Assembly: GCA_021770005.1 (NCBI GenBank)
Contig: JAETRV010000018.1
Location: forward strand, 1-49,627
DNA: 49,627 bases
Reading direction: 5' to 3'
DNA from: Anaerotruncus sp.
Lineage (GTDB): Bacteria; Bacillota; Clostridia; Oscillospirales; Ruminococcaceae
The notes below the pieces were generated by a model. It was given only the letters and a program-made list of their open reading frames with translations. It was not told where the DNA came from and made no database searches. This document shows, one piece after another, positions 1 through 49,627 of the stretch. Each line of letters opens with the position of its first letter. The first letter of the stretch is position 1. Position numbers and translations under genes: made by a program.

Positions 1-117
1 GACAGCCCGCAGGGTCGTCGCGGCGGATGCCGCGCTTCGGGCCAGAGGCCCGAGAAGACCCGAGGAAGGCGCCTTGCGCCTGGACGTTTGGTCAGGAGCC
101 AAACGTCCGCTGTCCTG
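1..117 (+). repeat. Composite hairpin element R1 (3' part of module C)
   Basis: This is the tail of a mosaic intergenic element that recurs through the window. Its closing stem pairs GACAGC (1-6) with GCTGTC (109-114) and encloses several hairpins, ending with GGACGTTTGG/CCAAACGTCC. It abuts the stop codon of the minus-strand PilZ-like gene. Positions 1-108 are identical to 49520-49627 at the other end of the window, so the sequence was probably cut inside a repeat. Confidence 0.85.
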
Positions 118-768
118 TTATCGGAAGCTGTTGTTTTGGGTGCTCAGATAGCTGATGTAGCTTTCGAGGTTGGAGCGGGAGGCCGCGTCGATGCTGGTGA
201 TCGAGCATTTGTATCCGCGCTTGGACTGCCCGAGATCGATCATGTGGTTGATCGTGAGCTGTACATTCTTGAGCAGCGGTTCTTCGAGCGAGAGCAGGAG
301 CGGCTGGGTCTCGTCGAGCAGCTCTTCAGAGGTAAACTTGATGTGGCGCAGGGAAACCGCGTGGACCTGTACATTCAGGATTTCCTCGTGGGGCTGCGGC
401 TTGCGGTGGAACAGGCCGAACTTGCCCTTTTGCGGGCGGGTCAATTCGGCTTGGAGCTTGGCGGGCAGGTCGACGTCATAGAGGAACACGCTGCGCGCGC
501 CGGGCAGCATCTCTTCGGTGACCGAGACGATCCGCAGCATCTGCGGCGACGAGAGGTAGACCTCCCCGGTATAGCTAATGACCTCCACCCCCTCCTGGGT
601 GCGCACGATCTTCAACCGTTCGCCGCGGTTATAGAGCGGGACAAATTCCCCCCGGAATTCTACGCTTTTGTTCTCCTGGGAAACTGTGATGGTGCCGCTC
701 TCCACCGGGCGGTCATCCAGCGTCTTGATCACGCCGGGAAATTTCGGGTCGGTTTTGCTATAGCTCAA
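118..768 (-). CDS. PilZ-like domain protein (degenerate), 216 aa
   Basis: I read a 216-residue cytoplasmic protein starting at TTG (766-768), with AAAGGAGG about 9 bases upstream on the minus strand, which decides the start. There is no signal peptide or membrane segment. The N-terminal half is beta-rich and resembles the YcgR_2-type domain that precedes PilZ. The C-terminal end (SITSIDAASRSNLESYISYL) resembles the last strand and helix of PilZ domains. The c-di-GMP signature (RxxxR plus D/NxSxxG) is not visible, so ligand binding is doubtful. PilZ proteins near flagellar genes often act as c-di-GMP brakes on the motor; applying that here is inference. It is the only minus-strand protein gene and is divergent from the FlgN-like gene. 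A + strand ORF over the same bases begins inside the repeat and lacks a ribosome binding site. Confidence 0.55.
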   Translation of the reverse strand: MSYSKTDPKFPGVIKTLDDRPVESGTITVSQENKSVEFRGEFVPLYNRGERLKIVRTQEGVEVISYTGEVYLSSPQMLRIVSVTEEMLPGARSVFLYDVDLPAKLQAELTRPQKGKFGLFHRKPQPHEEILNVQVHAVSLRHIKFTSEELLDETQPLLLSLEEPLLKNVQLTINHMIDLGQSKRGYKCSITSIDAASRSNLESYISYLSTQNNSFR

Positions 769-842
769 GGCAGGTTCCTCCTTTGATAACGAAAAACGGG
801 AGAGGTCTCCCGCAACGGTTCATTTGATCCACTATTATGATA

Positions 843-864
843 ATACAAAAAAACAGTTTTGTAT
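843..864. promoter_or_regulatory. Inverted repeat in the divergent intergenic region
   Basis: ATACAAAA (843-850) and TTTTGTAT (857-864) form a perfect 8-bp inverted repeat with a 6-base spacer. It lies between the PilZ-like gene and the FlgN-like gene. Its AT content stands out in a GC-rich window. It could be an operator or part of divergent promoters, but I see no clear -35/-10 pair. Confidence 0.35.
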
Positions 865-910
865 AGAGGGCTTCGGCCAAAAAAATCCAAGAGGGAAGGG
901 AGAGGTTTTT

Positions 911-1384: not shown

Positions 1385-1392
1385 GGCTTTTT

Positions 1393-1790
1393 TAAGAAGA
1401 ATGCCGCCTTCTGCGGCATGGAATGCGGGGGGTTCGGCCCCGCGCGCCGAGTTCCTTTTCGGATGCACGAAAAGGAACCAAAAGTGCACGTAAGGGGGAA
1501 CCCCCTTACGTATCCCCCGCGCCCCCAGACAAAGCGTTCATGCTCAAGGCTGACTTGCACCCTCTTTCGCCCCCAGATATCGAAGCCATATAAAGCTTGG
1601 AAACAGACAAAGCACTCAGCCTGGAAGGGTGGGGCACACGGGGAGGGGTCGCCGACCCCTAGCCCGTGAGACAGCCCGCAGGGTCGTCGCGGCGGATGCC
1701 GCGCTTCGGGCCAGAGGCCCGAGAAGACCCGAGGAAGGCGCGAGCGCCTGTCCGTTTGGTCAGGGGCCAAACGGACGCTGTCTTGTTGCA
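1393..1790 (+). repeat. Composite hairpin element R2 (modules A-B-C, forward)
   Basis: The element fills the gap between the FlgN-like gene and fliD. Module A carries ATGCCGC/GCGGCAT (1401-1419), a GTTCCTTTTCG/CGAAAAGGAAC hairpin and a GTAAGGGGG/CCCCCTTAC hairpin. Module B is the near-invariant stretch around TGCTCAAGGCTGACTTGCAC. Module C is closed by AGACAGC (1669-1675) with GCTGTCT (1777-1783) and ends in TCCGTTTGG/CCAAACGGA. No protein is encoded. Confidence 0.85.
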
Positions 1791-4817: not shown

Positions 4818-4904
4818 ATGGTTACATATTCGGAACTGTTTCAGTTTTGTCTGGTAATTCTAGGCGTTGTTGCTCTTGTTTTAGATGCAACAAAAAAGAA
4901 ATAA
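4818..4904 (+). CDS. Holin-like type I toxin peptide, 28 aa
   Basis: A 28-residue peptide runs from ATG 4818 to TAA 4902-4904: a short polar start (MVTYSELFQF), one hydrophobic membrane segment (about residues 10-22) and a KKK tail. This is the form of the small holin-like membrane toxins of Firmicutes (Pfam Hol_Tox-type), which depolarise the membrane when over-expressed. The ribosome binding site (AAAGGGGGG, 4802-4810) faces a CCCCCC run at 4766-4771 across a perfect hairpin (GAAACGGGGG/CCCCCGTTTC, 4774-4796), so it is likely masked in the folded mRNA. A strong convergent promoter drives an antisense RNA over the 3' end. The toxin reading rests on architecture and family resemblance. Confidence 0.7.
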   Translation: MVTYSELFQFCLVILGVVALVLDATKKK

Positions 4905-5016: not shown

Positions 5017-5068
5017 GCAATGAAAAAGAAGGGGACTTGCAGGTTTGCCGGGGAGGGGCTGGGTGCTG

Positions 5069-5465
5069 CCATTCGATCGAGCAGCGACGTGGAGGCGTTT
5101 TGCTTCTAGCCCGGGTCGAGTGGGCAGGGCTTGTCTGTCCAAAAAAACAGGTAGAGGCGAGCGCTGACATGCGTGTCGTTTCCACCCAGCCCGGGTCGGG
5201 CACCTTTCCGGGGAGTTCCATAAGAGGGGTGGAACCCCGCTTATGTGTGCTTTTTATCTTGCTTTTTGCACAAGCAAAAAACAAGCCGTCCGCCCGGACG
5301 GGACCGGGCATCTCGTGCCGCTTGCGGCACACCTCTTAAAAAAGGTAAGGTGCTGCACCGCTGCACAAAAACAATCCCAGCCCGGACGGGACCGGGCATT
5401 TCCTGCCGCTTGCGGCACACCTCTCAAAAGAGTAACGTGCTGCACCGCTGGACAAAAAAACCTCC
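5069..5465 (-). repeat. Composite hairpin element R3 (module D reversed, E duplicated)
   Basis: The element starts right after the antisense promoter region. It shows module D in reverse: the GACGTGGAGGCGTTTTGCTT segment, the AAAAAAACAG tract, the CATAAG-type stem, the CTTG/CAAG stem around TTTTTGC-ACAA-GCAAAAA, and GCCCGG-ACGGGA-CCGGGC. The terminal unit E (GTGCCGC/GCGGCAC, then GGTGCTGCACCGCTGCAC) is present twice in tandem. The rest of the gap to the next gene (5466-5761) holds only small GC hairpins and no convincing promoter. Confidence 0.85.
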
Positions 5466-5761
5466 CGCCCGGGCTTGTGTTTTGCGGCAGGCGGTCGAAA
5501 AGTGTAGTGTAAGGTATATCAAATAGCTTGCGCCCGGCTTTCCGGCTGGGTTCAGGTGATAGCAGCGGTTTTTGCCGCGGAAGGCCGCCTAGAGCGGTCT
5601 TGTTTTGGACTTGTGGCCAAAGGGACGTTTCTCTGTCAGCGGGTTTTGCCCGCCGTCCGGAAACAATGGAATGTTCCCGGCGCTTTGGCCAAACGCAAAA
5701 ATGCAGGGTGCATGAGGGGCGCACCTTTGCGGAATCTGGATGGTTGAGAGGTAATATAGAT

Positions 5762-8700
5762 ATGAGCTGGAAAAAAATTACGGCTTTTTGTTTGGCGTTC
5801 GTGATGGCGGCAGGCGTATCCTCCGGGCTTTCGCTCGAGCTGGATGCGGCTCCGATCAATGTCGCGGGCGGTTCTTCGCGTGCGGCTGGGGATGCCCGCG
5901 CCACCACCGAACAGGCCGCGACGCTGGCCTTTACCAAAGACCCGTGGGACAAAAACCCCACCGACACCGAAACCCGTACCGCGGTGAGCGGCACGATTGT
6001 GAATTTTACCGAGACCACCAAGGCAGGATACGCCAAGGACGTCAACGACAACTTTACCTGGGACGCCCAGGGCGGCGCGCCCGAACCGGAAAAGGATAAG
6101 GATTTGGTCATCCGCGACGCGGGCGGCAACAAGCGCCGGCTGACGATCGCGCCGGACTACCCGGCTGACGATTTTAAAGGCTCAGATGTCACGATCATGT
6201 TCAACGGCAACTACTACACCCTGCGCGGGACAGGTATCGTCATCCAGAAGCCGAGCGGACAGCCCGCCATCCCGGAGGAGGTCGCAACGATCAACCCCAC
6301 CCGTGTGCAGGAATACGGCGAAATCCAGCTGAAGGTCACACGGGGCGAGCAGCCGGTCGATGGGAAGCCCGGCGGCGTGGCGATGGGGATCGAGATCACC
6401 AAAAAGGACGGCGTGTTCGCGAATGTAACCGATGTGCGCGCCCTGCGCCAGCAGGACGGTCGGCTCCAGATCGAGCTGGTCGGCGTCCAGACCGAAACCG
6501 GAAACCAGTCGTTCTTCTTCCGGCCGTACGGGCAGTATCAGGGCTACCGCGACCCGGACAACACCAAAGATACCGATAAGGACGGAGCTGAATGGGGGAG
6601 CAAGCCCGAGCATTTTGAAGTGGATGAAACAACGGGGGCCGTCACAACGACCAAACTGCCTGTGCCGACCGACACCAACGACATCATCCGCGCAGGCACC
6701 GAGTTCACCCTCATCCTGCGCAAGCCGGTTTCGAATACCCTTGCGCTCACCATCAAGCCGCCGATGACCGCGGTCAACGAGATTGCCGAGCGTGTAGATG
6801 CCGGCGTGCGCGAGGACGGCAAAAAGGTCGGCATGACCGACAGCCAGTACATCACCCTCGACCCGCGCAACTCCCTCGAATTTATCACCGAGGATTTTTG
6901 GTTGGTCAAGAAGATTAAGGATTGGAACGCCCAGTTCGATATTGAATGGACGATCGGCGCGACGACCGAGAACAACGGGCAGAATGTCACGCTCAACGAC
7001 CTGCTCACCGTTGTGACCACCTCGCCGCCGCCGCCCGACGACCCCAATGCGCAGAACGAGGTCACCCAGCAGGTGATCCTCAACAAAGAACGGCTCCCGG
7101 AAAAGAACGTAGAGGGCGAGCTGAATATGGTCGTCCATTATACCACTGCGGACGGCAAACAGGTCTTTGATTCGGATGTGAAGGTCGCAATTCCGATCAT
7201 CGTCCGCGGCAAGGGCGTCAAGCCCGAGACGGTCGAGTTCCGGACCATCAACCCCGAAGGCCCCACGGTGATCGACGCCGCGCTCGCCGGCAACAAACGC
7301 CTTGAAATGGATGTGTTCCAAGGCGGCATTCCCGGCTACCGCGACCCGAAAAAGCCCTACCAATATGACCTCAGCCTCATGATGGGCTCGGGCAACGGCT
7401 GGGCGGAATATGTGCGGATCGATGTGGAGCACACCTCCCAAAAGGAGACCGATGAGGAGGACTTCACCGGGGACGAAGAGGTGGTGCAGATCCGCGCGAA
7501 CGATGAAATTCAGCAGGGGACCAGCATCAAGCTGAACAACCCCGGGCGGCAGGAGGCGGATGTCGAGCCGAAAAAGATCGCGCTCGAGCTGGTCGCCGCC
7601 CACAAGGGCCGCGCGGTTTTGACCATCAACTACGGACAGCTCACCGCCACCGGTGAGTATGTTGACGACCCCGCGCTCATGCGGGTGATTACCCTCGATA
7701 TCGACAACACCTCCCCCAGCGACGACGCGCGGCTCAAGTCGATCGTGATCGAAAACCAGGAGGGGAAGATCGTCGGCTTTGAGTCGTCCTCCTCCAATCC
7801 CTGGCAGTTCGACAAGGACAATACCGGCCAGTATATCATTGAGGTGCCCTACACCTCGACCGGCCTTCAGTTTATCCCGACCAAAAACCACCCGCTTGCC
7901 CAGCAGACGGTGGATATCCTCTGGCAGGCGTACTACCTCGACGCCACCGGCAACCGGGTGTTCCTGAACAAGAGCGACTCGGGCGATGATGCCGACCCGT
8001 GGTCCAAGGTCAAGAGCGGCAACCGCACCGATTCGATCGGCGAGGGGATCACCCTGCTCTTCTTCCGGCAGGGCCAGCCGCTGCCCGACGGGGTCCCGAT
8101 TACGGTGACCTTCCGCACCACCGCGCAGAACCCCACCATCCATATGGACTATATCCTCCAAATCATCCGGCGGTCGCCGGGTGTTGACGCGAGCCTGGTC
8201 AAGGTGGAGGGCTACCGCGACGGCGACCAGGAGGAGAAAACCACCAACCTGTTTACCCCGTTTGACGGCACCACCCTCGTCCAGCCGACCCTCTATACCG
8301 TCCCGTATATGACCGACTGGCTCTGGCTAAGCGCCACCCCCACCGACCCGAATGCAAAGGTGGAGTTCGACCCGCCGCTCAAGCAGTATAAGACCCAGCT
8401 GTTCGGCCAGAAGGAATGGCTCCAGCTCGCCGATATTCCGCAGCTGGCAAACGGCCTTTACAACCTGAAGGTCAAGGTCTGGTCGGAGGCGACCCGGTAT
8501 GACCAGCTCGCCAACCCCGACCGGGTCTACGAGCTGCAAATCCGCCGCGCCGACCCCTCCAAACATTCCGGCCTCGGGATGCTCGAGCTTGCGAAACTCG
8601 ACGGGACAGCCGTCCCCTACACCCCGTCGGTCAACGAGAACACGCTGACCTATGTGGTCAAGGACCTGCCCTACTCGGCTGCAAAATTGCAGATCAAGGC

Positions 8701-10762
8701 GGCGCAGTCCCCCGACCCCGAGAACCCGCTCAGCAGCATCTACAAGATTCTCTGCGTCTATAACCTCAAAAAGCCGAACGGCGGCGGACGCAAGTTTGTG
8801 GACATCACCTCGGATTTCTCGATCAAGAACGCGGTCGATATCGACTTCCTCCGCGAGGACGAACTCCCCGATGTGCTGCATCTGATCGTGGTTTCGGAGG
8901 CGGGCTACGGCAAATCCGACCAGCAGATTTGGGAGGCGGTCCAGAAGAACGATCCCGCGGACAGCGACTGGTTCACCGATTATACCATCGAGGTCAACCG
9001 GGCGCGCCCGAGCGAGATTTCCGACCTGCTCAACCTCAAGGTGAAGGGCAAGGACAAGGCGGACCAGGAGCACGACCTCAGCCTCAATTTCCGCGGCGAC
9101 AACTACGACACCTACTACCTCGACGTGCCCTACTCGATGACCAAGGTCAACTTCACCCCGTTCCTCGGGCAGGAGGGGCAGAAAATCTGGATCAAGAGCA
9201 ACCAAGGCCTGCTCGGGATGCTGCCGGGCCTGGGCAACCAGATGAAGGACGCCGACACCAAGGGCAGCTCCACCTCCCGCGACTACGAGCTGAACCGGTA
9301 TGAGGATAACCCGCAGACCGAGTTCACCATCACGGTGCGGGCGGAGGATTACGAGGAGTATAACCCCGGCCACGAGTCGATCTATAAAGTGGTGGTCCGC
9401 CGGGCCGCGCCGAGCAGTGACGCGCGCCTGCGCAACCTGACCGCCACCAATGTCGAGCTCGATGAGCTGCTCTATCCGGCCGGATTGCGCCCGCCGTTCA
9501 CCGCCTCGACCTACGACTACGAGGCAACCCTGATCGCGGGCGCGGTGGATACGGTGGTCACCGCGACCGCCAATGACGCCAACGCCACCATCGAGATCGA
9601 GGAAATCCTCACCCCGAGCGGCGTCGGCTCCGACCCGATTGCAATCATCTATGTCGAGCAGACGGTGACGATTGTGGTCACGGCTGAGGACGGCGTCACC
9701 ACCGAGACCTATACGATCACCTTCACCAACCCGAACATGATCGAGAAAACCACCAACGCAGACCTGAAATATCTGGATGTCAACTACAGCTACCTCAACC
9801 CCGATTTCCAGATTGGGTTCAGCTCCAAGACCGGCTTCGGGCAGATGACGCCCGAATTCCGGCCCGCCACCACCGATTATGAGGTCGTGGTGCCCGAGGA
9901 CTGCTATCAGGTGGAAATCCAGGCGAAGCCGGCCGACAAATACGCGACCATGGAAATCTTCCAGGGCACCCGCTCGATCGGCGACTACAACGGCAACTAT
10001 TCGGCTTCGGTGCAGGATGGCGAGAACCAGTTCTCGATTGTGGTCACCTCGAGCGCGGGCGAGAAATACACCAAGACCTATAACATCAGTGTGTTCCGCA
10101 ACGACGAGGAGAACATGAAGAACCTCACCCCGCTCGACGTCGAGGACATCGATTTCGAGAATTCGGGCGACGTGATCCTCGTTGCGATCGACGAGCATCC
10201 GCGCGTCAACGCGAACGTGTTCGAGGAGCTGAAAAAATACCCCGAAAAGACCATCATCTTCCAGGGCAACGACTACTCGATCGAGTTCAAGGCGTCCGAT
10301 CTGACCCGCGTGGTCCCGCAGCAGGAAATCTTTGATTTCAGAATGTTCTTTACAACCCCGCAGGAAGATGCTATCATGGAGATTATAGACCGGCGCAGCA
10401 GCAACGACGACCTGCGCGGCAACCGGATCGTCATGATGTACTTCCCGTACCACGGGATGCTGCCCGGCACTGCCACGCTGCATCTCAACCTGGGCTACCG
10501 GTACCACGACGACACCCTCTATTGGCACTACTACAACGAGGACCGGGAGCGGATCGACTATTACGGCTCGATCCTCGCCAATTCGCAGGGCACCTTTGCC
10601 GTTTCGATCGACCATTTCTCGACCTACATCGTCACCCGCCCGCACTATATCTACGGCGCGGAGCTGATGTACGGCGTGGAGGGCAACGAGAACGACCCGC
10701 TGCTCAACAGCGACTTTAACAAGGTCAACCCGTGGACGGGTGTCCCGGAGGAGAACCCATGA
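5762..10762 (+). CDS. Giant secreted protein with cadherin-like beta-sandwich repeats, 1666 aa
   Basis: The start is ATG 5762 after GAGAGGT, giving a signal peptide (MSWKKITAFCLAFVMAAGVS, cleavage near AA-P at ~residue 30); a longer ORF reading upstream has no start signal. About six repeats of the cadherin-like beta-sandwich type (bacterial PF12733-like, 'dA.L..L.v..........f.....Y...VP') begin near residues 646, 803, 930, 1078, 1210 and 1329. A separate C-terminal domain follows from ~1445. The protein ends in ..NPWTGVPEENP: NPWTG resembles a class B or LPXTG-like sorting motif, but there is no hydrophobic anchor after it. The stop overlaps the start of a sortase-like lipoprotein gene (ATGA). 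Role inferred: surface adhesin or scaffold produced with flgB-flgC. Substrate unknown. Confidence 0.8.
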   Translation: MSWKKITAFCLAFVMAAGVSSGLSLELDAAPINVAGGSSRAAGDARATTEQAATLAFTKDPWDKNPTDTETRTAVSGTIVNFTETTKAGYAKDVNDNFTWDAQGGAPEPEKDKDLVIRDAGGNKRRLTIAPDYPADDFKGSDVTIMFNGNYYTLRGTGIVIQKPSGQPAIPEEVATINPTRVQEYGEIQLKVTRGEQPVDGKPGGVAMGIEITKKDGVFANVTDVRALRQQDGRLQIELVGVQTETGNQSFFFRPYGQYQGYRDPDNTKDTDKDGAEWGSKPEHFEVDETTGAVTTTKLPVPTDTNDIIRAGTEFTLILRKPVSNTLALTIKPPMTAVNEIAERVDAGVREDGKKVGMTDSQYITLDPRNSLEFITEDFWLVKKIKDWNAQFDIEWTIGATTENNGQNVTLNDLLTVVTTSPPPPDDPNAQNEVTQQVILNKERLPEKNVEGELNMVVHYTTADGKQVFDSDVKVAIPIIVRGKGVKPETVEFRTINPEGPTVIDAALAGNKRLEMDVFQGGIPGYRDPKKPYQYDLSLMMGSGNGWAEYVRIDVEHTSQKETDEEDFTGDEEVVQIRANDEIQQGTSIKLNNPGRQEADVEPKKIALELVAAHKGRAVLTINYGQLTATGEYVDDPALMRVITLDIDNTSPSDDARLKSIVIENQEGKIVGFESSSSNPWQFDKDNTGQYIIEVPYTSTGLQFIPTKNHPLAQQTVDILWQAYYLDATGNRVFLNKSDSGDDADPWSKVKSGNRTDSIGEGITLLFFRQGQPLPDGVPITVTFRTTAQNPTIHMDYILQIIRRSPGVDASLVKVEGYRDGDQEEKTTNLFTPFDGTTLVQPTLYTVPYMTDWLWLSATPTDPNAKVEFDPPLKQYKTQLFGQKEWLQLADIPQLANGLYNLKVKVWSEATRYDQLANPDRVYELQIRRADPSKHSGLGMLELAKLDGTAVPYTPSVNENTLTYVVKDLPYSAAKLQIKAAQSPDPENPLSSIYKILCVYNLKKPNGGGRKFVDITSDFSIKNAVDIDFLREDELPDVLHLIVVSEAGYGKSDQQIWEAVQKNDPADSDWFTDYTIEVNRARPSEISDLLNLKVKGKDKADQEHDLSLNFRGDNYDTYYLDVPYSMTKVNFTPFLGQEGQKIWIKSNQGLLGMLPGLGNQMKDADTKGSSTSRDYELNRYEDNPQTEFTITVRAEDYEEYNPGHESIYKVVVRRAAPSSDARLRNLTATNVELDELLYPAGLRPPFTASTYDYEATLIAGAVDTVVTATANDANATIEIEEILTPSGVGSDPIAIIYVEQTVTIVVTAEDGVTTETYTITFTNPNMIEKTTNADLKYLDVNYSYLNPDFQIGFSSKTGFGQMTPEFRPATTDYEVVVPEDCYQVEIQAKPADKYATMEIFQGTRSIGDYNGNYSASVQDGENQFSIVVTSSAGEKYTKTYNISVFRNDEENMKNLTPLDVEDIDFENSGDVILVAIDEHPRVNANVFEELKKYPEKTIIFQGNDYSIEFKASDLTRVVPQQEIFDFRMFFTTPQEDAIMEIIDRRSSNDDLRGNRIVMMYFPYHGMLPGTATLHLNLGYRYHDDTLYWHYYNEDRERIDYYGSILANSQGTFAVSIDHFSTYIVTRPHYIYGAELMYGVEGNENDPLLNSDFNKVNPWTGVPEENP

Positions 10763-11625
10763 AGAAATTTTTGTGTACCTTTTTGGCCCTGACGCTGGCG
10801 GCGGGGCTGGGCGGATGCAGCGCGGTGAAAAACCTGCTCCCGTCCAGCGCCCCGGCGCAGGCCGGCCCGGCTTCGTCCGCGGCCTCGGCCCCCCAGCAGC
10901 AACAGCCGAATTCCCCCTCCCTGGGGGTGCGCAAACGCCCCCAGACCGATCTTGACGTGGTCGAGGCGCTCAACTATGAGCGGTCACAGAACCCGGATAC
11001 CGTCGCCTGGCTGCGGATTTTGGACACCGATGTCAACGACAGCGTGTTACAGGGGATGGACAATGTCGAGTATCTGCGCCGGACCGAGCGCAAAAAGGAG
11101 GATGTGTACGGCTGCTACTTCGCAGACTACACCAACTCGATCGGCCCGCGCGCCAAGCTCTCGCCCAATACGGTGATCTACGGGCACAGCGACCTGAAGG
11201 ATAACCCCGACGGGCCGCGGTTCTCCCAGCTGTTCAAGTTCACCGACCCGGAGTTCGCCGCGTCCCACCCGTATATCGAGCTGACCGTCCTCGGTGAGAC
11301 GATGCAATGGGAAATTTTTGCGGTGTTTTACCCGCATGTGAGCCTCGATTACATCAAGACCGACCTCTCGGGCAGCGAGCTGACCGCACTCGCGCAGGCC
11401 GCGGCCGACCAATCGATCTATGACTACGGGGTGACGGTCGGCCCGGACGACAAGATTCTGACCCTTTCCACCTGTACCATCAAATTTGGCGAAGGGGATA
11501 CCCAACACCGGTTTGTGGTGATGGGCAGGCTGCTCCCCAAGGACAGCCCGCTCGCCGAACAGGTCGCGATCAAACAGAAGGACGGCGCGCAGGCCACCGC
11601 TTCCGCGCCCCAAACGGAGGGATAA
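10759..11625 (+). CDS. Class B sortase-type transpeptidase, predicted lipoprotein, 288 aa
   Basis: The N-terminus is a lipoprotein signal with lipobox L17-G-G-C20. After a Pro/Ala/Gln linker comes a sortase domain of class B type: NTVIYGHS with catalytic His143, LTLSTCT with catalytic Cys239, and HRFVVMGRL with Arg251. Sortases join surface proteins to the wall or to each other. A lipid-anchored sortase is unusual, since most have an N-terminal membrane helix. ATG 10759 overlaps the stop of the giant secreted protein, with GGAGG just upstream, so the two are translationally coupled and the big protein is the obvious substrate. flgB starts 3 bases after this stop, placing the pair in the flagellar operon. 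Confidence 0.85.
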   Translation: MKKFLCTFLALTLAAGLGGCSAVKNLLPSSAPAQAGPASSAASAPQQQQPNSPSLGVRKRPQTDLDVVEALNYERSQNPDTVAWLRILDTDVNDSVLQGMDNVEYLRRTERKKEDVYGCYFADYTNSIGPRAKLSPNTVIYGHSDLKDNPDGPRFSQLFKFTDPEFAASHPYIELTVLGETMQWEIFAVFYPHVSLDYIKTDLSGSELTALAQAAADQSIYDYGVTVGPDDKILTLSTCTIKFGEGDTQHRFVVMGRLLPKDSPLAEQVAIKQKDGAQATASAPQTEG

Positions 11626-12530: not shown

Positions 12531-12547
12531 CAAGGAGGGATTCTGAT

Positions 12548-34190: not shown

Positions 34191-34200
34191 AGGTGGTTTT

Positions 34201-35262: not shown

Positions 35263-35263
35263 T

Positions 35264-37318: not shown

Positions 37319-37324
37319 CAGCTT

Positions 37325-37908
37325 GTGCAGCTGCGCAGCTAAGGGTGTGCCGCCTGTCGGCGGCAGGGGATGCGGGGTATTCGGCCCCGCGCGCCGAGCA
37401 CCTTTTCGGATGCACGAAAAGGTACCAAAAGTGCACGTAAGGGGGAGACCCCCTTACGTATCCCCCTCGCCCCCAGACGAAGCGCTCATGCTCAAGGCTG
37501 ACTTGCACCCTATTTCGCCCCCAAGCACCAAAGCCGCATAGAATGCGGAGAACCGGTCGAGCACCGACGTGAAGGCGTTTTGCTTCTAGCCCGGGTCGAG
37601 TGGGCGAGGGTTGTCTGGCCCAAAAAACAAGTAGGGGCAGGCTCTGACATGCGTGTCGTTTCCGCCCTGCTTGGGGTGGGCTGGATGCCGGGGGGATACA
37701 TAAGGGGGGTGGAACCCCCGCTTATGCGTGCTTTTTGTCTTTCTTTTTGCACGAGCAAAAAGAGAGCCGCCCGTCCGTGCGGGAACGGACATCCCGTGCC
37801 GCATCGCGGCACACATCTTTGAAAAAGGTGAGGTGCAGCACCGCTGCACAAAAAGAACCGCCGCCCGTGCGGGAACGGACATTTGGTGCCGCTTGCGGCA
37901 CACCCCAT
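37325..37908 (-). repeat. Composite hairpin element R10 (A, B forward; D, E, E reversed)
   Basis: Follows the flhA stop. D reversed uses second-type stems: GTCCGT-GCGGGA-ACGGAC and a TTTCTTTTTGC-ACGA-GCAAAAAGAGA hairpin in place of the CTTG/CAAG version. Unit E is duplicated in tandem; the second copy has GCCCGT/ACGGAC, one pair short. A carries CACCTTTTCG/CGAAAAGGTAC. Confidence 0.85.
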
Positions 37909-37935
37909 CCCAACCCTTGAAGGGAGTGATGTAAA

Positions 37936-38721: not shown

Positions 38722-38726
38722 GAACT

Positions 38727-39500
38727 ATGCTGAGAGGATTCTATACCGCCGCATCCGGCATCCTGATGCAGGAACGGACGCTGAATGTGCTCACCAACAA
38801 TATGGTGAACTCCCAGACCCCTGGGTTTCGTGCGTCCCGGGTGGTGAGCACCACCTTTGACCAGGAATTTATGACCCGTTACGAACAGATCAACGGCCCG
38901 AGCGCGATTGGTGTTGGCTCGCCGATCCGGGTGGTTTCGGATGTGCCCACCCAGTTCGACCCCAGCTCGCTCGAGGAGACCGGCAGGCCGTTCGATGTGG
39001 CGATCAATGGGGACGGGTTTTTCAACTATCAGGTCACCGACGCCGACGGCAACCAGACCCAATATCTCGGCCGCAACGGCAACTTCGATATCGACGCCGA
39101 GGGCTTCCTGGTGCTGCCGGGGGTCGGGCGGGTGCTTGGCGAGAAAGGCCCTATCCAGTTCGAGGAGCTGAACACCAAATTTGTCATCGAGACCGATGGG
39201 CAGGTCTACGACGAGGAGGGCACCGTGATCGACCGGCTGCTCATCACCCAGCCGCCCCAGGACGCCCAGATGGTCGTGACCGAAAACGGGATGTTCCAGG
39301 TGCAGGACATGGCGCTGAACGAGCAGATCAACGACCGTACCATCCTCGTGCAGGGCTGGACCGAACGCTCCAACGTCGACCTCAACCGCGAATATACCCT
39401 CGCCATCGAGGCCCAGCGGGCGTTCCAGGCGTGCAGCTCGGCGCTCCAGATCGTCGACAAGATTAATCAGAAGGCTGCGCAGCAGATTGCGTCCCTGTAG
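38727..39500 (+). CDS. Flagellar rod protein of the FlgF/FlgG family (first copy, FlhO-like), 257 aa
   Basis: This is a distal-rod type protein. The N-terminal motif (YTAASGILMQERTLNVLTNN followed by MVNSQTPGFRAS) and the C-terminal motif (TERSNVDLNREYTLAIEAQR, AFQACSSALQIVDKINQKAA) are intact, around a beta-rich middle with GDGFFNYQV. Firmicutes often carry two such genes (flhO and flhP in Bacillus). I cannot say which of the two here is FlgF and which FlgG. ATG 38727 lies 5 bases after the sigma factor stop. Confidence 0.9.
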   Translation: MLRGFYTAASGILMQERTLNVLTNNMVNSQTPGFRASRVVSTTFDQEFMTRYEQINGPSAIGVGSPIRVVSDVPTQFDPSSLEETGRPFDVAINGDGFFNYQVTDADGNQTQYLGRNGNFDIDAEGFLVLPGVGRVLGEKGPIQFEELNTKFVIETDGQVYDEEGTVIDRLLITQPPQDAQMVVTENGMFQVQDMALNEQINDRTILVQGWTERSNVDLNREYTLAIEAQRAFQACSSALQIVDKINQKAAQQIASL

Positions 39501-39529
39501 TTTGGGAAGCAATCCCATGATGCTTTTTA

Positions 39530-40034
39530 TAAGGATGCCGCCGATCGGCGGCAGGGGATGCGGGGTGTCCGCCCCCGCGCGGCGGGTTCCTTTTCGGATG
39601 CACGAAAAGGAACCAAAAGTGCACGTAAGGGGGAACCCCCTTACGTATCCCCCTCGCCCCCAGACAAAGCGCTCATGCTCAAGGCTGACTTGCACCCTAT
39701 TTCGCCCCCAGACGTTCGCATGCCGTTTCAAAAGTCAGAATCGATCGAGCACCGACGTGAAGGCGTTTTGCTTCTAGCCCGGGTCGAGTGGGCGAGGTTT
39801 GTCTGGCCAAAAAAACAGGTAGGGGCAGGCTCTGACATGAGCGTCGTTTCCGCCCTGCCTGAGGTGGGCTGAATGCCAGGGGGATATATAAGGGGGGCTC
39901 CCCCTTATGTGTGCTTTTTATCTTGCTTTTTGCACAAGCAAAAAACAAGCCGTCCGCCCGGACGGGACCGGGCATCATCGTGCCGCTTGCGGCACACCTC
40001 TCAAAAAAGGTAAGGTACTGCACCGCTGTACAAA
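39530..40034 (-). repeat. Composite hairpin element R11 (A, B forward; D reversed)
   Basis: Sits between the two rod genes. A has GCCGCC/GGCGGC, GTTCCTTTTCG/CGAAAAGGAAC and GTAAGGGGG/CCCCCTTAC; B holds the invariant GCTGACTTGCACCC segment; D reversed ends with GCCCGG-ACGGGA-CCGGGC, GTGCCGC/GCGGCAC and GGTACTGCACCGCTGTAC. Confidence 0.85.
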
Positions 40035-40083
40035 CAGTCCTCCTGCCCGCAGAGCATAGATTTTAGAAATGAGGTGTTCGATT

Positions 40084-44172: not shown

Positions 44173-44345
44173 GGTGTGCAGCATGTTGCTTTTTTGAGAG
44201 AGGCGCCGCCTGCCGGCAGCAGGGGATGCGGGGAGTTCGGCCCCGCGCGCCGAGTCCCTTTTCGGATACACGAAAAGGGACCAAAACCGCCTTAAAGGGT
44301 AAGCCCCTTAAAGATCCCCCCGCCCTCAGGCGGAGCGCTCATGCG
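44173..44345 (+). repeat. Composite hairpin element R12 (E start, A, fragment of B)
   Basis: A short copy directly after the receptor stop: GTGCAGCATGTTGC, a GCCGCC/GGC-type stem, CCCCGC stem, GTCCCTTTTCG/CGAAAAGGGAC, an imperfect CTTAAAGGG/CCCCTTAAAG stem and the start of B (GAGCGCTCATGC). It ends at the ribosome binding site of the FMN lipoprotein gene. Confidence 0.8.
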
Positions 44346-44818: not shown

Positions 44819-44835
44819 CCGGGAAAAGGGCAGAA

Positions 44836-44864
44836 AAAAGGAGGGGAATTCCCCCTCCTTTTAT
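44836..44864 (+). terminator. Intrinsic terminator after the FMN lipoprotein gene
   Basis: AAAAGGAGGGG (44836-44846) pairs with CCCCTCCTTTT (44852-44862) around AATTC. It abuts the -35 box of the relic toxin promoter, exactly as a weaker hairpin abuts the intact locus at 4670-4697. Confidence 0.8.
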
Positions 44865-45155
44865 TGACTGGTAAGTGGTTCCATGCTAGAATAAGGATAA
44901 AGTGCTGCCACAACGGCTGCGGGTGGCTGTTCCCCGATCTGAGCGGGGGACAGCACCTTTCTTTGCCTTTACGATACCATCATCGCGGAGCGATTTGGCA
45001 GAGTGGGCCATCGGAACGGGAGCGGGCGGCCGCCCGCGGATCGTTCTGGCCATAACCCCGGTATCATAGCCGCTTTGCGGCTATGATACCCTACAATATG
45101 GGCGCTGTCAATCAATGAAAGAGAAGAGGACACGCGGGTTTTCCGGGGGAGGATA
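44864..45155 (+). pseudogene. Toxin-less relic of the type I toxin/antisense locus
   Basis: The promoter block is nearly the same as at 4698: TTGACT (44864-44869), 17 bases, TAGAAT (44887-44892), then AGTGCTGCCACAACGGCTGC. The toxin ORF and its ribosome binding site are gone: the leader goes straight into CTGTTCCCC/GGGGGACAG and then CAGCACCTTTCTTT, the counterpart of GGTAGCACCTTTCTTT. The GTGCTG/CAGCAC pairing of transcript ends survives. About 100 bases of unrelated GC-rich sequence (44972-45060) and a perfect 14-bp palindrome (45060-45090) interrupt the antisense part. The convergent promoter remains. Confidence 0.7.
45060..45111 (-). promoter_or_regulatory. Convergent promoter of the relic, -10 inside a perfect palindrome
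   Basis: On the minus strand TTGACA (45111-45106), 17 bases, TATCAT (45088-45083). The -10 lies in one arm of GGTATCATAGCCGC (45060-45073) and GCGGCTATGATACC (45077-45090). A transcript would start in the loop or the second arm. Confidence 0.6.
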
Positions 45156-45640
45156 GGGGCAGCATCCGTTTGGCCCCAGACCAAACGGACAGGCGCTCGC
45201 GCCTTCCTCGGGGCTTCTCGGGCCTGTGGCCCGAAGCGCGGCATACGCCGCGACGCCCCTGCGGGCTGCCTCACGGGCTAGGGGTCGGCGACCCCTCCCC
45301 GTGTGCCCCACCCTTCCGGGCAGGGTGCTTTTCCTGTTTCCCGCATTTTACGCGGCTTCGGATGCCTGGGGGAGGAAGAGGGTGCAAGTCAGCCTTGCGC
45401 ATGAGCGTTTGTCTGTGTGCTTTTTATCTTGCTTTTTGCACAAGCAAAAAACAAGCCGTCCGCCCGGACGGGACCGGGCATCTCATGCCGCTGCAAGGGC
45501 GGCATTCCCCTTGAAAAAGTAACGTGCCGCACCGCCGCACAAAAAGAACCACCGCCTGGACGGGACCGGGCATTTTAGCGCCGCATCGCGGCACACTTCT
45601 CAAAAAAGTAAGACGCTGCACCGCTGTATAAAAGACAGGA
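45145..45640 (-). repeat. Composite hairpin element R13 (C, B, shortened D, E, E; all reversed)
   Basis: Module C reversed closes with GGCAGC (45158-45163) and GCTGCC (45265-45270). B reversed passes directly into the end of D, skipping the CATAAG-type stem. Unit E is duplicated; one stem reads GCCTGG-ACGGGA-CCGGGC with a T-G pair. It ends just before the ribosome binding site of the xdhB-like gene. Confidence 0.82.
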
Positions 45641-45648
45641 GAGGGAAC

Positions 45649-46446
45649 GTGTATACAATCAAGACCTATCTGATGGCGCAGACGCTGGATGAGGCGTACA
45701 GTGCGCTGCAAAAGAACAAATCGAATGTCGTGCTGGGCGGCTGCGGGTGGCTGAAGATGGCCCGCAAGCGGTTCTGGACAGGCATCGACCTGAGCAGGCT
45801 CGGGCTGGACCGGATCGAAGAGCGGGACGGCTGGCTGGAGCTGGGCGCGATGGTGACCTTGCGGCAGCTCGAGACCGACCCGGCAGCGCGGGCTGTGTTT
45901 GGCGGGATTTTGCCGCAATCGGTCGAGCGGATCGTGGGGGTGCAGTTCCGCAACTGCGCCACGGTGGGCGGCTGTGTTTGGATGCGGGCGGGATTCTCCG
46001 ACCTGCTCACCGCTCTGCTGGTGCTCGAGACCGAAGTGGAGCTGTACCACGCGGGCCGGATGCCGCTGGAAACCTTCCTCGCGCTGCCCCAGAGCCGGGA
46101 GACGCGGGACATCCTCACCCATGTCCGGGTCAAGCTGGACGGCAGGGACGCGGCCTACCAGTCGGTCCGCAATACGGCAACCGATTTCCCGGTTGTGACA
46201 GCGGCGGCCGCGCACCTCGGCCAAAGCTGGATGGTCGCGGTCGGCGCGCGCCCGATGCGCGCGGTCCGGGTGCCGGCGGCGGAAACCGCCCTCTCTGCGG
46301 GGGCGATGCCCGAGGCCTGCCGGGCGGTTGCGGCGCTCGGCTACGCGGGCAATCTGCGTGGCTCGGCGGACTACCGCCGCAAGGTGGCACAGGTGCTGGT
46401 GCGGCGGGCAGCCGGGGAGATACTGCAACGGGAGGGGAAACAATGA
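45649..46446 (+). CDS. xdhB: Molybdenum hydroxylase FAD-binding subunit (XdhB/CoxM type), 265 aa
   Basis: This subunit passes electrons from the iron-sulfur subunit to its acceptor through FAD. The FAD-binding motif near the N-terminus is present in modified form (VVLGGCGWLKMARKR, usually 'aGGT.l....'), and the second motif appears as QFRNCATVGGCVWMRAGFSD (usually 'iRn.aTiGGn...a.p.sD'). The C-terminal CO_deh_flav_C region follows from ~165. The start is GTG 45649 after AGGAGAGG. It overlaps the next gene by 4 bases. The changed first FAD motif is worth noting. Confidence 0.85.
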   Translation: MYTIKTYLMAQTLDEAYSALQKNKSNVVLGGCGWLKMARKRFWTGIDLSRLGLDRIEERDGWLELGAMVTLRQLETDPAARAVFGGILPQSVERIVGVQFRNCATVGGCVWMRAGFSDLLTALLVLETEVELYHAGRMPLETFLALPQSRETRDILTHVRVKLDGRDAAYQSVRNTATDFPVVTAAAAHLGQSWMVAVGARPMRAVRVPAAETALSAGAMPEACRAVAALGYAGNLRGSADYRRKVAQVLVRRAAGEILQREGKQ

Positions 46447-46898
46447 GGATTAAACTGACCGTCAACGGCAGGCAGTTCGATAAGCACGTCCCCGCGGACA
46501 TGATGCTGCTCGACTTCCTGCGCAAATATGGGTTTGTCAGCGTGAAGCGGGGATGTGAAACCTCCAACTGCGGCCTGTGCACCGTCTGGGTGGACGAGCG
46601 CCCGGTGCTTTCCTGCACCTACCCGGTCGCCCGGGCCGAGGGCAGGCGGGTCACCACCATCGAAGGGGTGGTCCCCGAGGCGGAGGAGTTCGGAAAGTTC
46701 CTCGCGGCGCGCGGGGCGGAACAGTGCGGTTTTTGCAGCCCGGGGCTGGTCATGACCGTCCTCGCCATGAAGCGGGAACTTCGCAGCCCGGATGAACAGC
46801 AGGTGCGCGCCTACCTCGCGGGCAACCTCTGCCGCTGTTCCGGCTACACCTCCCAGCTCGACGCTGTGATGTCGTTCCTGAAAGGGGGAGCCCGATGA
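46443..46898 (+). CDS. xdhC: Molybdenum hydroxylase 2Fe-2S subunit (XdhC/CoxS type), 151 aa
   Basis: This subunit holds two [2Fe-2S] clusters. The plant-ferredoxin-type set is C38, C43, C46 and C58 (CETSNCGLC then SC); the second set is C95, C98, C130 and C132 (CGFCSPG and CRC). Length is normal. ATG 46443 overlaps xdhB by 4 bases and the end overlaps the catalytic subunit by 4 bases, so all three are co-translated. In many Clostridia the 2Fe-2S subunit is called XdhC; naming varies. Confidence 0.93.
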   Translation: MRIKLTVNGRQFDKHVPADMMLLDFLRKYGFVSVKRGCETSNCGLCTVWVDERPVLSCTYPVARAEGRRVTTIEGVVPEAEEFGKFLAARGAEQCGFCSPGLVMTVLAMKRELRSPDEQQVRAYLAGNLCRCSGYTSQLDAVMSFLKGGAR

Positions 46899-49153
46899 AC
46901 GCTGTCAACCGCCGCATCCCCAAGCTGGATGCCCGCGCCCTTACCACCGGTAAGGGCGTCTACACCGACGACCTTGTCCCGCCCGGCGCGCTGGTGGTCA
47001 AGGTGCTGCGCAGCCCGCACCCGTTCGCGCGGATCACCGGCATCCGCACCGATGCCGCCCGCCGGCTCAACGGGATCGAGTGCGTGCTCACCTATGCCGA
47101 CGTCCCCAAAATCCGGTTCACACAGGCGGGGCAGAGCTACCCGGAGCCCAGCCCGTACGACCGGTATATCCTCGAAAACCTCGTGCGGTATGTGGGGGAT
47201 CCGGTCGCGATTGTCGCCGGGCAGGACGAACAGGTGGTGGACCAGGCGCTCCGGATGATCAAGGTGGACTATCAGCCGCTGGCCCCGGTGCTTGACTACG
47301 AAACCGCGCTGGACAACCCCGCGGTAGTCCACCCGGAAGCGGACTATTTCAACAACTTCCCGGTTGGCGGCGACCCGTGGCGGAACCTCGTGGCCTCGGG
47401 GGAGCGCACGAGCGGCGACCTCGAACAGGTCTTTTCCGAGTGCGACCTGGTGCTTGAGGAGACGTTCCACACCAAAGCGGTGGCACAGGCCATGATGGAG
47501 ACATTCCGCACCTACACCTGGCTCGACCACAACAGCCGGCTGAATGTGCTCACCTCCACCCAAATCCCGTTCCACTGCCGGAGGCAGATCGCGCGGGCGC
47601 TGGGGATCCCGCAGGCCCGGGTGCGGGTCATCAAGCCGCGGATCGGCGGAGGGTTCGGCGCCAAGCAGACGATGTGCAGCGAGCTGTTCCCGGCGGTGGT
47701 CACGATGAAAACCGGCAAGCCCGCCCGGATGGTTTTTTCGCGGCAGGAGAGTTTCACCGCCTCCAACAGCCGCCACGAGATGCGGGTAACTGTCCGGATG
47801 GGCGCGGACAAAGCGGGGAACATCCGCGCAATCGATATGTACGCCCTCTCCAACCAGGGGGCTTACGGCGAACACGGCCCCACCACGATCGGTCTGGTGG
47901 GGGGGAAGTCGATCGCCCTTTACACCCCTGAGGCGTTCCGGTTCCGCTATGACGTGGTCTACACCAACACGATGGGCGCGGGCGCGTTCCGCGGCTACGG
48001 CGCGACACAGGGCTGTTTTGCGCTCGAATCGCTGGTCAACCGGCTGGCCGAACGCCTTAAGATCGACCCCACCGAGCTGAGGCTGCGCAATATCCCCGAG
48101 GTGGGCGACCCGATGGAGGCCTACGCGGACGGCGCACTCGCCAGCAGCCGGTTGGAGGACTGCATCCGGCGGGGACGGGAGATGATCGGTTGGGAGGAGA
48201 AGTTCCCGTCGGTGCGGGTGGACGGGCATACGGTGCGCGGGGTCGGCATGGCAATCAGTATGCAGGGCTCGGGCATCGCCAATATCGACACCTGCTCCGC
48301 TGTGATCCGGCTGAACGACAACGGGTTTTACACCCTGATGATTGGTGCAACCGACATGGGCACCGGCTGTGACACCATCCTCGCGCAGATGGCCGCCGAG
48401 GTGCTTCACTGCCCGGTCGGACGGATCACCGTCGACGGGGTGGATACCGACCATTCCCCGTTCGACAAGGGGTCGTACGCCTCGGGCACCACCTACCTCA
48501 CCGGGATGGCGGTCGTCAAGGCGAGCACCAAGCTGGCGGCGGAGATCCGTCAGAAGGGCGCTGACCGGTTGGGGGTACCGGTGATGCAGGTGATGTTCAA
48601 TGGGGATGCGGTCGTCTCCAAGACCGACCCCGACCTCAAGATTTCCCTCTCCGAGCTCGCCCAACAGCTGGTTGTGGGGGACGGGGAGTGGCTCCAGTGC
48701 ACCGCCACCCATTCCAGCCCGGTTTCTCCGCCGCCCCTGATGGCCGGGTTTGCCGAGGTCGAGGTGGACACCGAGACCGGCAAGGTCACGGTGCTCGATT
48801 ATGTCGCGGTCGTCGACTGCGGTACGGTCATCAACCCCAACCTGGCCACCGTCCAGACACAGGGCGGCATCGCACAGGGAATCGGGATGGCGCTCTGGGA
48901 GGACATCCAGTACAACAAGCGCGGACGGATGCTCAATGATTCGTTCATGCAGTACAAGATTCCCTCCCGGCTCGACCTGCCCGATATCCGTGTCGAGTTC
49001 ATGCCCAGCTACGAGCCAACCGGCCCATTCGGCGCCAAGTCGATCGGCGAGATCGTCATCAATACCCCCGGCCCCGCCATCGCGGCCGCGGTCGCCAATG
49101 CCACCGGGGTCTGGTGCAATGAATTGCCTATCAAACCAGAACAGCTGATTTAA
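46895..49153 (+). CDS. xdhA: Molybdenum hydroxylase catalytic subunit (xanthine dehydrogenase type, XdhA), 752 aa
   Basis: This is the molybdopterin subunit. Moco-binding motifs are RIGGGFGAKQ (about residues 249-258) and GAFRGYGATQ (about 366-375), and the catalytic glutamate is E719 in GPFGAKSIGE. The second-shell segment MMETFRTYTWLD replaces the 'EP' type loop of other hydroxylases and matches clostridial purine-type enzymes as I know them. Likely substrate: a purine such as xanthine, but another N-heterocycle is possible. Accessory genes for Mo insertion (XdhC-like chaperone, MocA) and purine transport are not in the window. A terminator follows the stop. Confidence 0.9.
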   Translation: MNAVNRRIPKLDARALTTGKGVYTDDLVPPGALVVKVLRSPHPFARITGIRTDAARRLNGIECVLTYADVPKIRFTQAGQSYPEPSPYDRYILENLVRYVGDPVAIVAGQDEQVVDQALRMIKVDYQPLAPVLDYETALDNPAVVHPEADYFNNFPVGGDPWRNLVASGERTSGDLEQVFSECDLVLEETFHTKAVAQAMMETFRTYTWLDHNSRLNVLTSTQIPFHCRRQIARALGIPQARVRVIKPRIGGGFGAKQTMCSELFPAVVTMKTGKPARMVFSRQESFTASNSRHEMRVTVRMGADKAGNIRAIDMYALSNQGAYGEHGPTTIGLVGGKSIALYTPEAFRFRYDVVYTNTMGAGAFRGYGATQGCFALESLVNRLAERLKIDPTELRLRNIPEVGDPMEAYADGALASSRLEDCIRRGREMIGWEEKFPSVRVDGHTVRGVGMAISMQGSGIANIDTCSAVIRLNDNGFYTLMIGATDMGTGCDTILAQMAAEVLHCPVGRITVDGVDTDHSPFDKGSYASGTTYLTGMAVVKASTKLAAEIRQKGADRLGVPVMQVMFNGDAVVSKTDPDLKISLSELAQQLVVGDGEWLQCTATHSSPVSPPPLMAGFAEVEVDTETGKVTVLDYVAVVDCGTVINPNLATVQTQGGIAQGIGMALWEDIQYNKRGRMLNDSFMQYKIPSRLDLPDIRVEFMPSYEPTGPFGAKSIGEIVINTPGPAIAAAVANATGVWCNELPIKPEQLI

Positions 49154-49184
49154 AAAAAGGAGGGGATATTTCCCCTCCTTTTTT
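49153..49184 (+). terminator. Intrinsic terminator after xdhA
   Basis: AAAAAAGGAGGGG (49153-49165) pairs with CCCCTCCTTTTTT (49172-49184), loop ATATTT. It overlaps the last base of the stop codon and is symmetric, so it could work in both directions. Confidence 0.88.
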
Positions 49185-49194
49185 CTCCCCCTTT

Positions 49195-49627
49195 TGAGAG
49201 GTGTGCCGCTGTACGGCACGATGATGCGGGGAGTCCGCCCCCGCACGGCGGGTCCCTTTTCGGATGCACGAAAAGGAACCAAAAGTGCACGTAAGGGGAG
49301 AACCCCTTACGTATCCCCCGGCATCCGGCCCACCTCAGGCAGGGTGGAAACGACGCTCATGTCAGAGCCTGCCCCTACCTGTTTTTTGTCCAGACAGGCC
49401 CCGTCCGCTCGACCCAAACTAGAAGCAAAACGCCTTCACGTCGGTGCTCGATCGAATGAAAGCACTCAGCCCGGAAGGGAGGGGCACACGGGGAGGGGTC
49501 ACCGACCCCTCGCCCGTGAGACAGCCCGCAGGGTCGTCGCGGCGGATGCCGCGCTTCGGGCCAGAGGCCCGAGAAGACCCGAGGAAGGCGCCTTGCGCCT
49601 GGACGTTTGGTCAGGAGCCAAACGTCC
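49195..49627 (+). repeat. Composite hairpin element R14 (A, D, C forward), cut by the window end
   Basis: A forward, then the middle of D forward (GGCCCACCTCAGGCAGGGTG onward) and C forward. It stops inside module C before the closing GCTGTC. Its last 108 bases equal positions 1-108. The A stem GGTCCCTTTTCG/CGAAAAGGAACC has one C-A mismatch that would be a G-U pair on the other strand. Confidence 0.85.

Follow-up and report, generated by a model that had tools for sequence, protein, structure and literature searches.

Modular repeats with covarying pseudoknots in the gene gaps of an Anaerotruncus flagellar region

Many of the gaps between flagellar genes in Anaerotruncus sp. (GenBank assembly GCA_021770005.1) are occupied by folded, modular repeats, which we analysed in contig JAETRV010000018.1 over its whole length of 49,627 nucleotides (the window). 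We propose that these elements are non-autonomous mobile DNA repeats with folded-DNA ends, moved in trans by an enzyme yet to be found, a reading in which we place about as much confidence as doubt. The argument turns on one module, K, which faces outwards at the element ends, carries two covarying pseudoknots and recurs in other genera of the order.

Modular architecture of the elements

Comparison of the window with itself by BLAST returns repeated blocks at all fourteen places listed in a preliminary description made from the letters of the window alone, within ~45 bases of the coordinates given there and with the same sum of ~5.7 kb. Fourteen as a number of copies needs some qualification. 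All are repeated, but R5 is just a fragment of one module and R12 a lone K (Table 1), and R1 and R14, both cut by the contig ends, have 108 identical bases in common (1-108 and 49520-49627), so that they may be one repeat type broken by the contig end rather than two separate copies. In the same way, the elements do fill many gaps of the flagellar operon, as had been described, but six gaps (after 21861, 23256, 26811, 30392, 35262 and 40881) hold none by self-BLAST and gap comparison, and the elements run on past the operon.

Profile hidden Markov models (HMMs) resolve the elements into five modules of one unit, O-K-(M or D)-E, in which K measures ~120 bp, M or D forms the middle, E is a closed multi-branched domain and O an outer hairpin. 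Besides the forward and the reversed unit there are truncated forms and pairs of half-elements joined by their tails, R4 being two half-elements with K outward on either side. The hairpin mosaic first reported as modules A to E, in differing order and both orientations, is thereby upheld in its order and orientations, and refined to a single unit with two pseudoknots added in K. Throughout the window K faces outwards, left ends being K+ or E- (D- in R3) and right ends K- or E+, with K at both ends only in R4, R7, R8, R10 and R11. K1 and K2 are subfamilies of one module, because each HMM finds the other. The G+C content of the fourteen blocks is 58-69%, and that of eleven elements from other genomes 44-67%.

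Covariation and pseudoknots in K

Alignments of K were built from 98 hits in two genomes only, of which 62 were full-length and 60 distinct (31 K1 and 29 K2 copies). The common fold begins with hairpin H1, followed by H2, whose loop pairs downstream to form pseudoknot A, then by H3, whose loop pairs with 3-4 bases beyond an A-rich linker to form pseudoknot B, and ends with H4 (AAGGGG...CCCCTT). In K2, 97.9% of 1188 cells are paired, a value as high as this being found in none of 500 shuffles, and 10 pairs have changed on both sides (3/500 shuffles), accounting for 70 such cells (0/500). The figures for K1 are alike, with 98.8% of 1237 cells paired (0/500), 6 pairs changed on both sides (3/500) and 26 such cells (0/500). 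Changes on both sides of the pairing occur in both pseudoknots. Two swaps in K2 illustrate the pattern: TTCGGC/GCCGAG in 6 copies stands for TCCGCC/GGCGG in 23, and TGCGC/GCGCA in 3 copies for TGCAC/GTGCA in 25. R6 and R11, the two elements that were folded, are each better than 100 of 100 shuffles (z -4.8 and -8.2). Covariation among aligned copies, which the preliminary description had named beforehand as its own refuting test, thus finds strong support. As a separate observation, a short hairpin can form in the stretch ahead of H3; with the U-rich side of H3 coming after it, this resembles a terminator with a competing fold.

A long-range stem closes the E1 domain, which is multi-branched inside and also has terminal hairpins. 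Of its 1171 cells 98.0% are paired, 15 pairs have changed on both sides (0/500 shuffles), and all five covariation measures exceed every shuffle. These pair counts cover E1, not the E2 alignment (A4), and derive from 128 E hits, 52 of them near full-length, after one divergent E1 row and one truncated row of 23 E2 rows were left out. Outside the genus the HMMs of E, D and M gave no hit, matches being confined to loci of the window's own genome (G000) and of a sister species (G006), together with weak E matches in genome G004; K is therefore the shared core of the family. E alone is found outside the flagellar contigs in both G000 and G006. Such E modules that lack K are arranged in tandem and as E- E+ pairs at other places of the genome (L043, L044, L045, L176-L178).

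Distribution of K beyond the genome

A covariance model of K2, from which the pseudoknots were left out, was searched at E 1e-6 and in the family matches 19 of 396 genomes, spread over 12 of 126 genera, in the order 20 of 394 and in the phylum 3 of 398, counts that always include its own genome. These searches used strict filters and scored just 8 candidates in each genome, so that copy numbers are lower bounds and negatives soft; in the DNA searches no more than 40 candidates per genome were scored.

Perhaps the most telling feature of the distant copies is pseudoknot B, which persists across genera with changed letters: the lower H3 stem, the loop and the linker end all differ, while the pairing of loop with linker end is kept. 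For 31 distinct loop-linker pairs, the mean longest Watson-Crick run between a loop and its own linker is 3.87 (18 runs of 4, seven of 3, five of 5 and one of 2), against 2.70 on permutation with a maximum of 3.16 (0/5000). These pairs, like the 26 H3 stems considered below, are distinct examples hand-picked from 38 distant rows after removal of duplicates, of shadow and truncated rows and of one stem whose arms differ in length (L187/L206), and the window family supplied four further pairs. A second set of 12 rows from order-level loci, nine of them from one genus, gives a mean run of 4.08 against 3.04 permuted (0/5000); three shadow rows of the original 15 were set aside, and two of the remaining rows (L245 and L246) are weak matches, one without the pairing.

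Where two K modules lie on opposite strands, they face each other, spanning 352-859 bp, in 11 of 12 loci (from 9 genomes, among 33 loci scanned); the remaining pair, in L185, is back to back. No gene was recognised inside the facing pairs, as far as can be judged from open reading frames listed for the window and for the longest element (L182), the latter viewed by eye and none inside an element compared with protein families. Eighty FlhA-bearing loci of named genomes, with up to 10 kb per side, held no element match at E 1e-3. Plasmid and phage collections held no relative of R10, and viral contigs no exact match to the K1 or K2 core patterns. In G004, 32 of 38 element sites on contig C7 (hand-merged, with 40 of 111 candidates scored) lie in the dnaA-proximal half (p ~1e-5 if the sites are independent).

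Comparison of gene gaps with related genomes

The sister species carries elements in nine of the eleven gaps R2-R12, the exceptions being R5 and R12, and the R12 gap there is 12 bases long. In eight of the nine shared gaps, all but R10, the module order differs from that of the window (some of the sister's gaps hold Ns); at R2, for example, K2-M-E1 in the window corresponds to K2-D-E1. Two sibling genomes, G001 and G005, gave no element match. Their orthologous gaps, in approximate lengths that include the stop codon, measure 135 and 125 bases at R2, 18 and 68 at R4, 8 and 62 at R6, 166 and 115 at R7, 26 and 34 at R9, 131 and 45 at R10, and 21 and 9 at R11, with 11 in G001 alone at R12; the figure for R8 spans another gene, and R3 and R5 lie outside the comparison. 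Ten of the fifteen values are 8-68 bases and the other five 115-166. Since the sibling gaps are mostly this short, the elements occupy intergenic positions and leave the genes intact, in agreement with the initial view that no gene is interrupted.

R10 is 98.4% identical to the same gap of the sister over 628 aligned bases, while fourfold-degenerate sites are 80.5% identical across 19 genes and 82-85% in its two neighbours; the near identity extends a little into both flanking genes. At ~27.9-32.1 kb, two of the measured genes are 98.7% and 99.5% identical to the sister at fourfold-degenerate sites, against 65-90% in the other 17 genes, which probably reflects recent exchange between the two species.

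Concentration in a replicon-sized region

The same flagellar region lies on contig C4 of the sister (121,174 bp), where 41 element clusters take up 16.1 of the first 118 kb. The window (contig C141 of its genome) and contigs C142, C111, C87 and C14 are syntenic with C4, with the exception of ~10 kb inside C14 and of the window's xanthine dehydrogenase end, whose match lies in contig C10 of the sister (45414-49309, 85.6%). A whole-genome pattern scan places all K cores of the sister in C4, C10 and C11; the 14 K2 and 22 K1 matches, 36 in all, reduce to 33 distinct, as three copies were seen twice where C11 is contained in C10 or the end of C10 overlaps the start of C4. In G000 the syntenic contigs make up 3.8% of the genome and hold 30 of the 37 K cores (17 of 22 K2 and 13 of 15 K1).

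The start of C10 overlaps the end of C4 by 95 exact bases, and its end overlaps the start of C4 by 168. The window passes from genes of the C4 start into genes of C10, which lends independent support to that join. The other join sits in a toxin-like locus to which at least seven stretches of C4 are related (74-91% identical), and the 95 overlap bases match C4 once at >=93%. The region encodes ParA and a primase-helicase, and the elements continue through chemotaxis, ParA and other genes. It is therefore probable, from the contig-end overlaps and these two genes, that the flagellar and chemotaxis region is a circular secondary replicon of ~126 kb, as pieced together from contigs. In the siblings the flagellar genes are on large contigs, that of G001 being a single contig of 3.56 Mb.

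Discussion

We envisage the following course of events. The elements would be copies, truncated copies and recombinants of one non-autonomous mobile repeat family, whose outward K ends would fold as single strands in the order hairpin, pseudoknot A, pseudoknot B, hairpin. An enzyme acting in trans on these folded ends would recognise the fold as DNA. In other genera the usual two-K form is the facing pair K...K', in build like miniature inverted-repeat transposable elements (MITEs). In the present lineage the family may have filled one flagellar replicon-sized region, settling in gene gaps without breaking genes, and its copies may then have swapped middles and ends by recombination to give the mosaic. 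The data themselves show the modules, the outward K ends, the covarying pseudoknots, the spread through the order, the shared gaps with altered contents, the short sibling gaps and the concentration in one region; movement by an enzyme, reading of the fold as single-stranded DNA, shuffling by recombination and a circular replicon are inferences. At the ends of IS200/IS605 elements and at integron attC sites an enzyme reads a folded single strand. The likeness to these systems lies in the proposed working mode only, no such enzyme having been found here, and IS200/IS605 and attC sites are not, to our knowledge, double pseudoknots. A bolder form of the proposal, which we regard as tentative and distinctly less probable, would be an order-wide mobile family in which a conserved tandem pair of pseudoknots in single-stranded DNA marks the ends, with letters free and pairing kept. 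It would be moved in trans by an enzyme, of a type yet to be found, that reads this fold, and in one bacterial lineage it would have colonised a single flagellar replicon as a module-shuffling workshop.

Simple hairpins are the usual description of small bacterial repeats, and the ends of the present ones have two covarying pseudoknots. Should the fold be read as DNA, the mode of recognition and the enzyme remain to be found; if it is read as RNA, a widespread and unlisted RNA family lies inside polycistronic messages. Because the sister gaps are filled with other contents and the sibling gaps are mostly short, insertion and shuffling become directly testable, and the concentration on one replicon is relevant to the question of why such repeats build up in particular places.

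A number of observations weigh against mobile DNA with folded ends. The largest hole is that no mobilising enzyme was found, with only the Y1 transposase searched for. No clear target-site duplication is seen when R12 is set against the 12-base gap of the sister, or in the G004 flanks, and the element ends are ragged, with tandem outer hairpins. Further pair types in K are not above shuffles (17 against 17.4 in K2, 381/500; 464/500 in K1). One of the 31 loop-linker pairs has a run of only 2, and one of the 12 order-level rows a run of 1. Wobble is not wholly absent: a single K1 pair is fixed as G-T in 28 of the 31 copies, and 33 distant rows, left from 38 after five that were shadows or truncated had been set aside, give 935 Watson-Crick, 9 G-T, 6 A-C and 24 other over all modelled pairs. 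On the K strand the linker is A-rich, which would suit an RNA pseudoknot. Singleton changes in K number 7 in 140 paired columns against 13 in 56 unpaired (K2, 6 in 70 against 7 in 29; K1, 1 in 70 against 6 in 27), and their rarity in the stems suggests that copies may still be under constraint in place; the difference is less clear in E1 (25 in 91 paired, 20 in 55 unpaired). Finally, R10 is far more alike between the two species than silent sites are, which could mean selection on a function. Purifying selection on R10 is suggestive and at the same time confounded, because the near-identical tract enters the flanking genes and selection is then indistinguishable from recent recombination.

Several of these points favour the main alternative, which we consider possible though rather doubtful, namely that K and E are structured RNAs within messenger RNA, serving as 3' untranslated or operon-spacer stabilisers or insulators, or as a terminator/antiterminator switch in which the U-rich 5' side of H3 comes after the preceding hairpin and would be hidden by H3. 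Covariation including pseudoknots with an A-rich linker, the avoidance of K stems by singleton changes and the unusual conservation of R10 all agree with RNA. Several elements also run from a stop codon, or from just past it, to a point short of the following gene in a co-directional operon, and terminator-like sites number 24 in the interval 32070-40060, 20 of them within elements, where shuffles give 7.4. However, functional RNA stems usually contain many G-U pairs. In the 26 distinct H3 stems there are 284 Watson-Crick pairs, 2 A-C and no G-T, and in K2, K1 and E1 together the pair positions with G-T number 18 and those with A-C 22 (46 and 38 cells, 28 of the 46 from the single K1 pair mentioned above), so that G-U positions are not in excess of A-C. 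Clear wobble tolerance is seen on neither strand, which points to pairing kept at the DNA level or to neutral decay after insertion. An RNA function in place also sits poorly with siblings that have the same operon and short gaps, with the changed contents of eight of nine shared gaps and the absence of R12 from the sister, and with the use of both orientations. The preliminary description had listed structured RNA among its possibilities; covariation is in keeping with this, while little of the wobble tolerance expected of RNA is seen. We weigh DNA above RNA, although not heavily.

In architecture the elements are most like MITEs, and in modularity like BOX or bacterial interspersed mosaic element (BIME) repeats. 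MITEs such as Correia/NEMIS, ERIC and RUP (PMC2229807) are similarly small, located between genes, highly base-paired, inverted at their ends and present in many copies, and the facing K pairs of other genera provide such inverted ends; the present elements differ in K ends of ~120 nt with two covarying pseudoknots, in the 352-859 bp length of their two-K forms and in a G+C content of 58-69% in the window. MITEs are A+T-rich (PMC3049150), and the window blocks are not. Of the early suggestions, MITE-like behaviour best fits the build seen in other genera; the base composition differs. It is, on balance, unlikely that these are ordinary MITEs of a classical (DDE-type) insertion sequence, with K read as duplex sequence and its hairpins and pseudoknots as by-products. 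Facing K pairs without a recognised gene, dispersed between genes in both orientations, are what such MITEs would provide, whereas ends of ~120 nt that change loop and linker letters between genera with the pairing kept are unexpected if only the duplex is read. No cognate insertion sequence was seen, without a systematic search, and no target duplication is shown.

BOX elements of streptococci (PMC3049150) resemble the present family in composite modularity, boxA, boxB and boxC being interchangeable modules with predicted stem-loops that lie in or next to operons and are co-transcribed. In the text of that paper the term pseudoknot is absent, and here both module orientations, outward ends and a K module found across an order are seen, the comparison being by description only. 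At gathering score Rfam gave no match in the window or in 9 related loci; matches of R6 and R8 at a relaxed E-value fell far below threshold (e.g., Thermales-rpoB, 22.6 bits against 77.3) and were rejected. A literature search that included REPs (repetitive extragenic palindromes) together with Oscillospiraceae returned, within the terms used and the library searched, no paper on this repeat family, which is apparently unnamed.

It could also be argued that the perfect stems are kept by the mutation process rather than by selection, through template switching at quasi-palindromes or gene conversion between copies. Near-perfect stems, altered on both sides and poor in wobble pairs, would follow from this, as would the close likeness of copies within the replicon. 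We nevertheless think it improbable, since the 3-4 bp helices of the pseudoknots covary too, between stretches that are not arms of one hairpin.

Movement of a REP/BIME by a REP-associated tyrosine transposase (RAYT) can hardly be credited, even though the elements share with that class (PMC2817692) a mosaic, palindromic, repeated build, a place between genes and alternating orientation, and G000 and G006 have one Y1 transposase (PF01797) match each: Y1 is absent from three element-bearing genomes (G004, with 142 matching element pieces, G014 and G076) and is therefore not needed by the family, while G005 has ten Y1 matches and no element match. REPs are, in the same source, short palindromes with mostly GTAG or GTGG near the start and tied to RAYT. 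Neither property holds here, K being no short single palindrome but a unit of ~120 nt with two pseudoknots and no invariant GTAG-type tetranucleotide at its 5' end in the 29 and 31 aligned copies. Of the classes first suggested, REP/BIME in the strict sense is thus set aside.

Positions of the elements and other features of the window

Table 1 Elements R1-R14 and the helices of one K2 copy in the window
Feature	Position	Strand	Composition or pairing	Basis
R1	1-119	+	3' part of E1 domain, cut by contig start	self-BLAST, module HMMs
R2	1386-1787	+	K2 (1399-1518) - M (1520-1578) - E1 (1623-1779)	self-BLAST, HMMs
R3	5056-5472	-	D (5071-5209) - K1 (5211-5332) - O - partial K1 (5367-5420) - O; K faces right	self-BLAST, HMMs
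R4	12000-12533	mixed	O - K1 (12036-12154,+) - D (12155-12293,+) - M (12318-12377,-) - K2 (12378-12495,-) - O	self-BLAST, HMMs
R5	13500-13574	-	E1 fragment (13514-13573), 60-75 bp only	self-BLAST, HMMs
R6	20316-20711	+	K1 (20326-20443) - M (20444-20503) - E1 (20548-20706)	self-BLAST, HMMs, folding
R7	25065-25604	mixed	K2 (25069-25169,+) - E2 (25172-25316,-) - D (25335-25473,-) - K1 (25475-25598,-)	self-BLAST, HMMs
R8	32082-32640 (self-BLAST block 32083-32627)	mixed	O - K1 (32117-32234,+) - D (32235-32374,+) - E2 (32385-32540,+) - K2 (32542-32636,-)	self-BLAST, HMMs
R9	33722-34187	+	partial K1 (33727-33784) - O - K1 (33815-33931) - M (33933-33991) - E2 (34035-34187)	self-BLAST, HMMs
R10	37325-37906 (self-BLAST block from 37340)	mixed	K2 (37344-37466,+) - M (37467-37526,+) - D (37551-37689,-) - K1 (37691-37814,-) - O - partial K1	HMMs
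R11	39516-40049	mixed	K2 (39533-39653,+) - M (39654-39713,+) - D (39739-39877,-) - K1 (39879-39997,-) - O	self-BLAST, HMMs, folding
Pseudoknot A, K2 of R11	39569-39572 with 39582-39585	+	H2 loop with downstream bases	A1 columns 42-45 with 55-58
H3, K2 of R11	39586-39596 with 39603-39613	+		A1 columns 59-69 with 76-86
Pseudoknot B, K2 of R11	39599-39602 with 39620-39623	+	H3 loop (TGCA) with bases after CAAAAG linker	A1 columns 72-75 with 93-96
H4, K2 of R11	39624-39645	+		A1 columns 97-106 with 110-119
R12	44176-44344	+	lone K2 (44201-44320), between stop codon and next ribosome-binding site	HMMs
R13	45160-45633	-	E1 (45161-45317) - M (45364-45416) - K1 (45413-45493, inner end cut) - O - partial K1 - O	self-BLAST, HMMs
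R14	49190-49627 (self-BLAST block from 49152)	+	K2 (49200-49319) - D (49320-49457) - E1 (49473-49626), cut by contig end	self-BLAST, HMMs

The toxin-like locus mentioned above is represented in the window at 4818-4904 by a 28-aa holin-like toxin reading frame (Hol_Tox, E 0.0068, short of the Pfam cut-off), and is repeated as a diverged stretch at 44830-44938 as well as in the related stretches of C4. Inside the flagellar region, 5528-11625 encodes a 1744-aa protein with cadherin-like domains together with a sortase-domain protein, and a gene of the flagellar operon contains 45-base tandem repeats at 29681-29956, Pro- and Gln-rich by eye. On the same replicon, 45649-49153 carries xanthine dehydrogenase-type genes for the FAD, 2Fe-2S and molybdopterin subunits.

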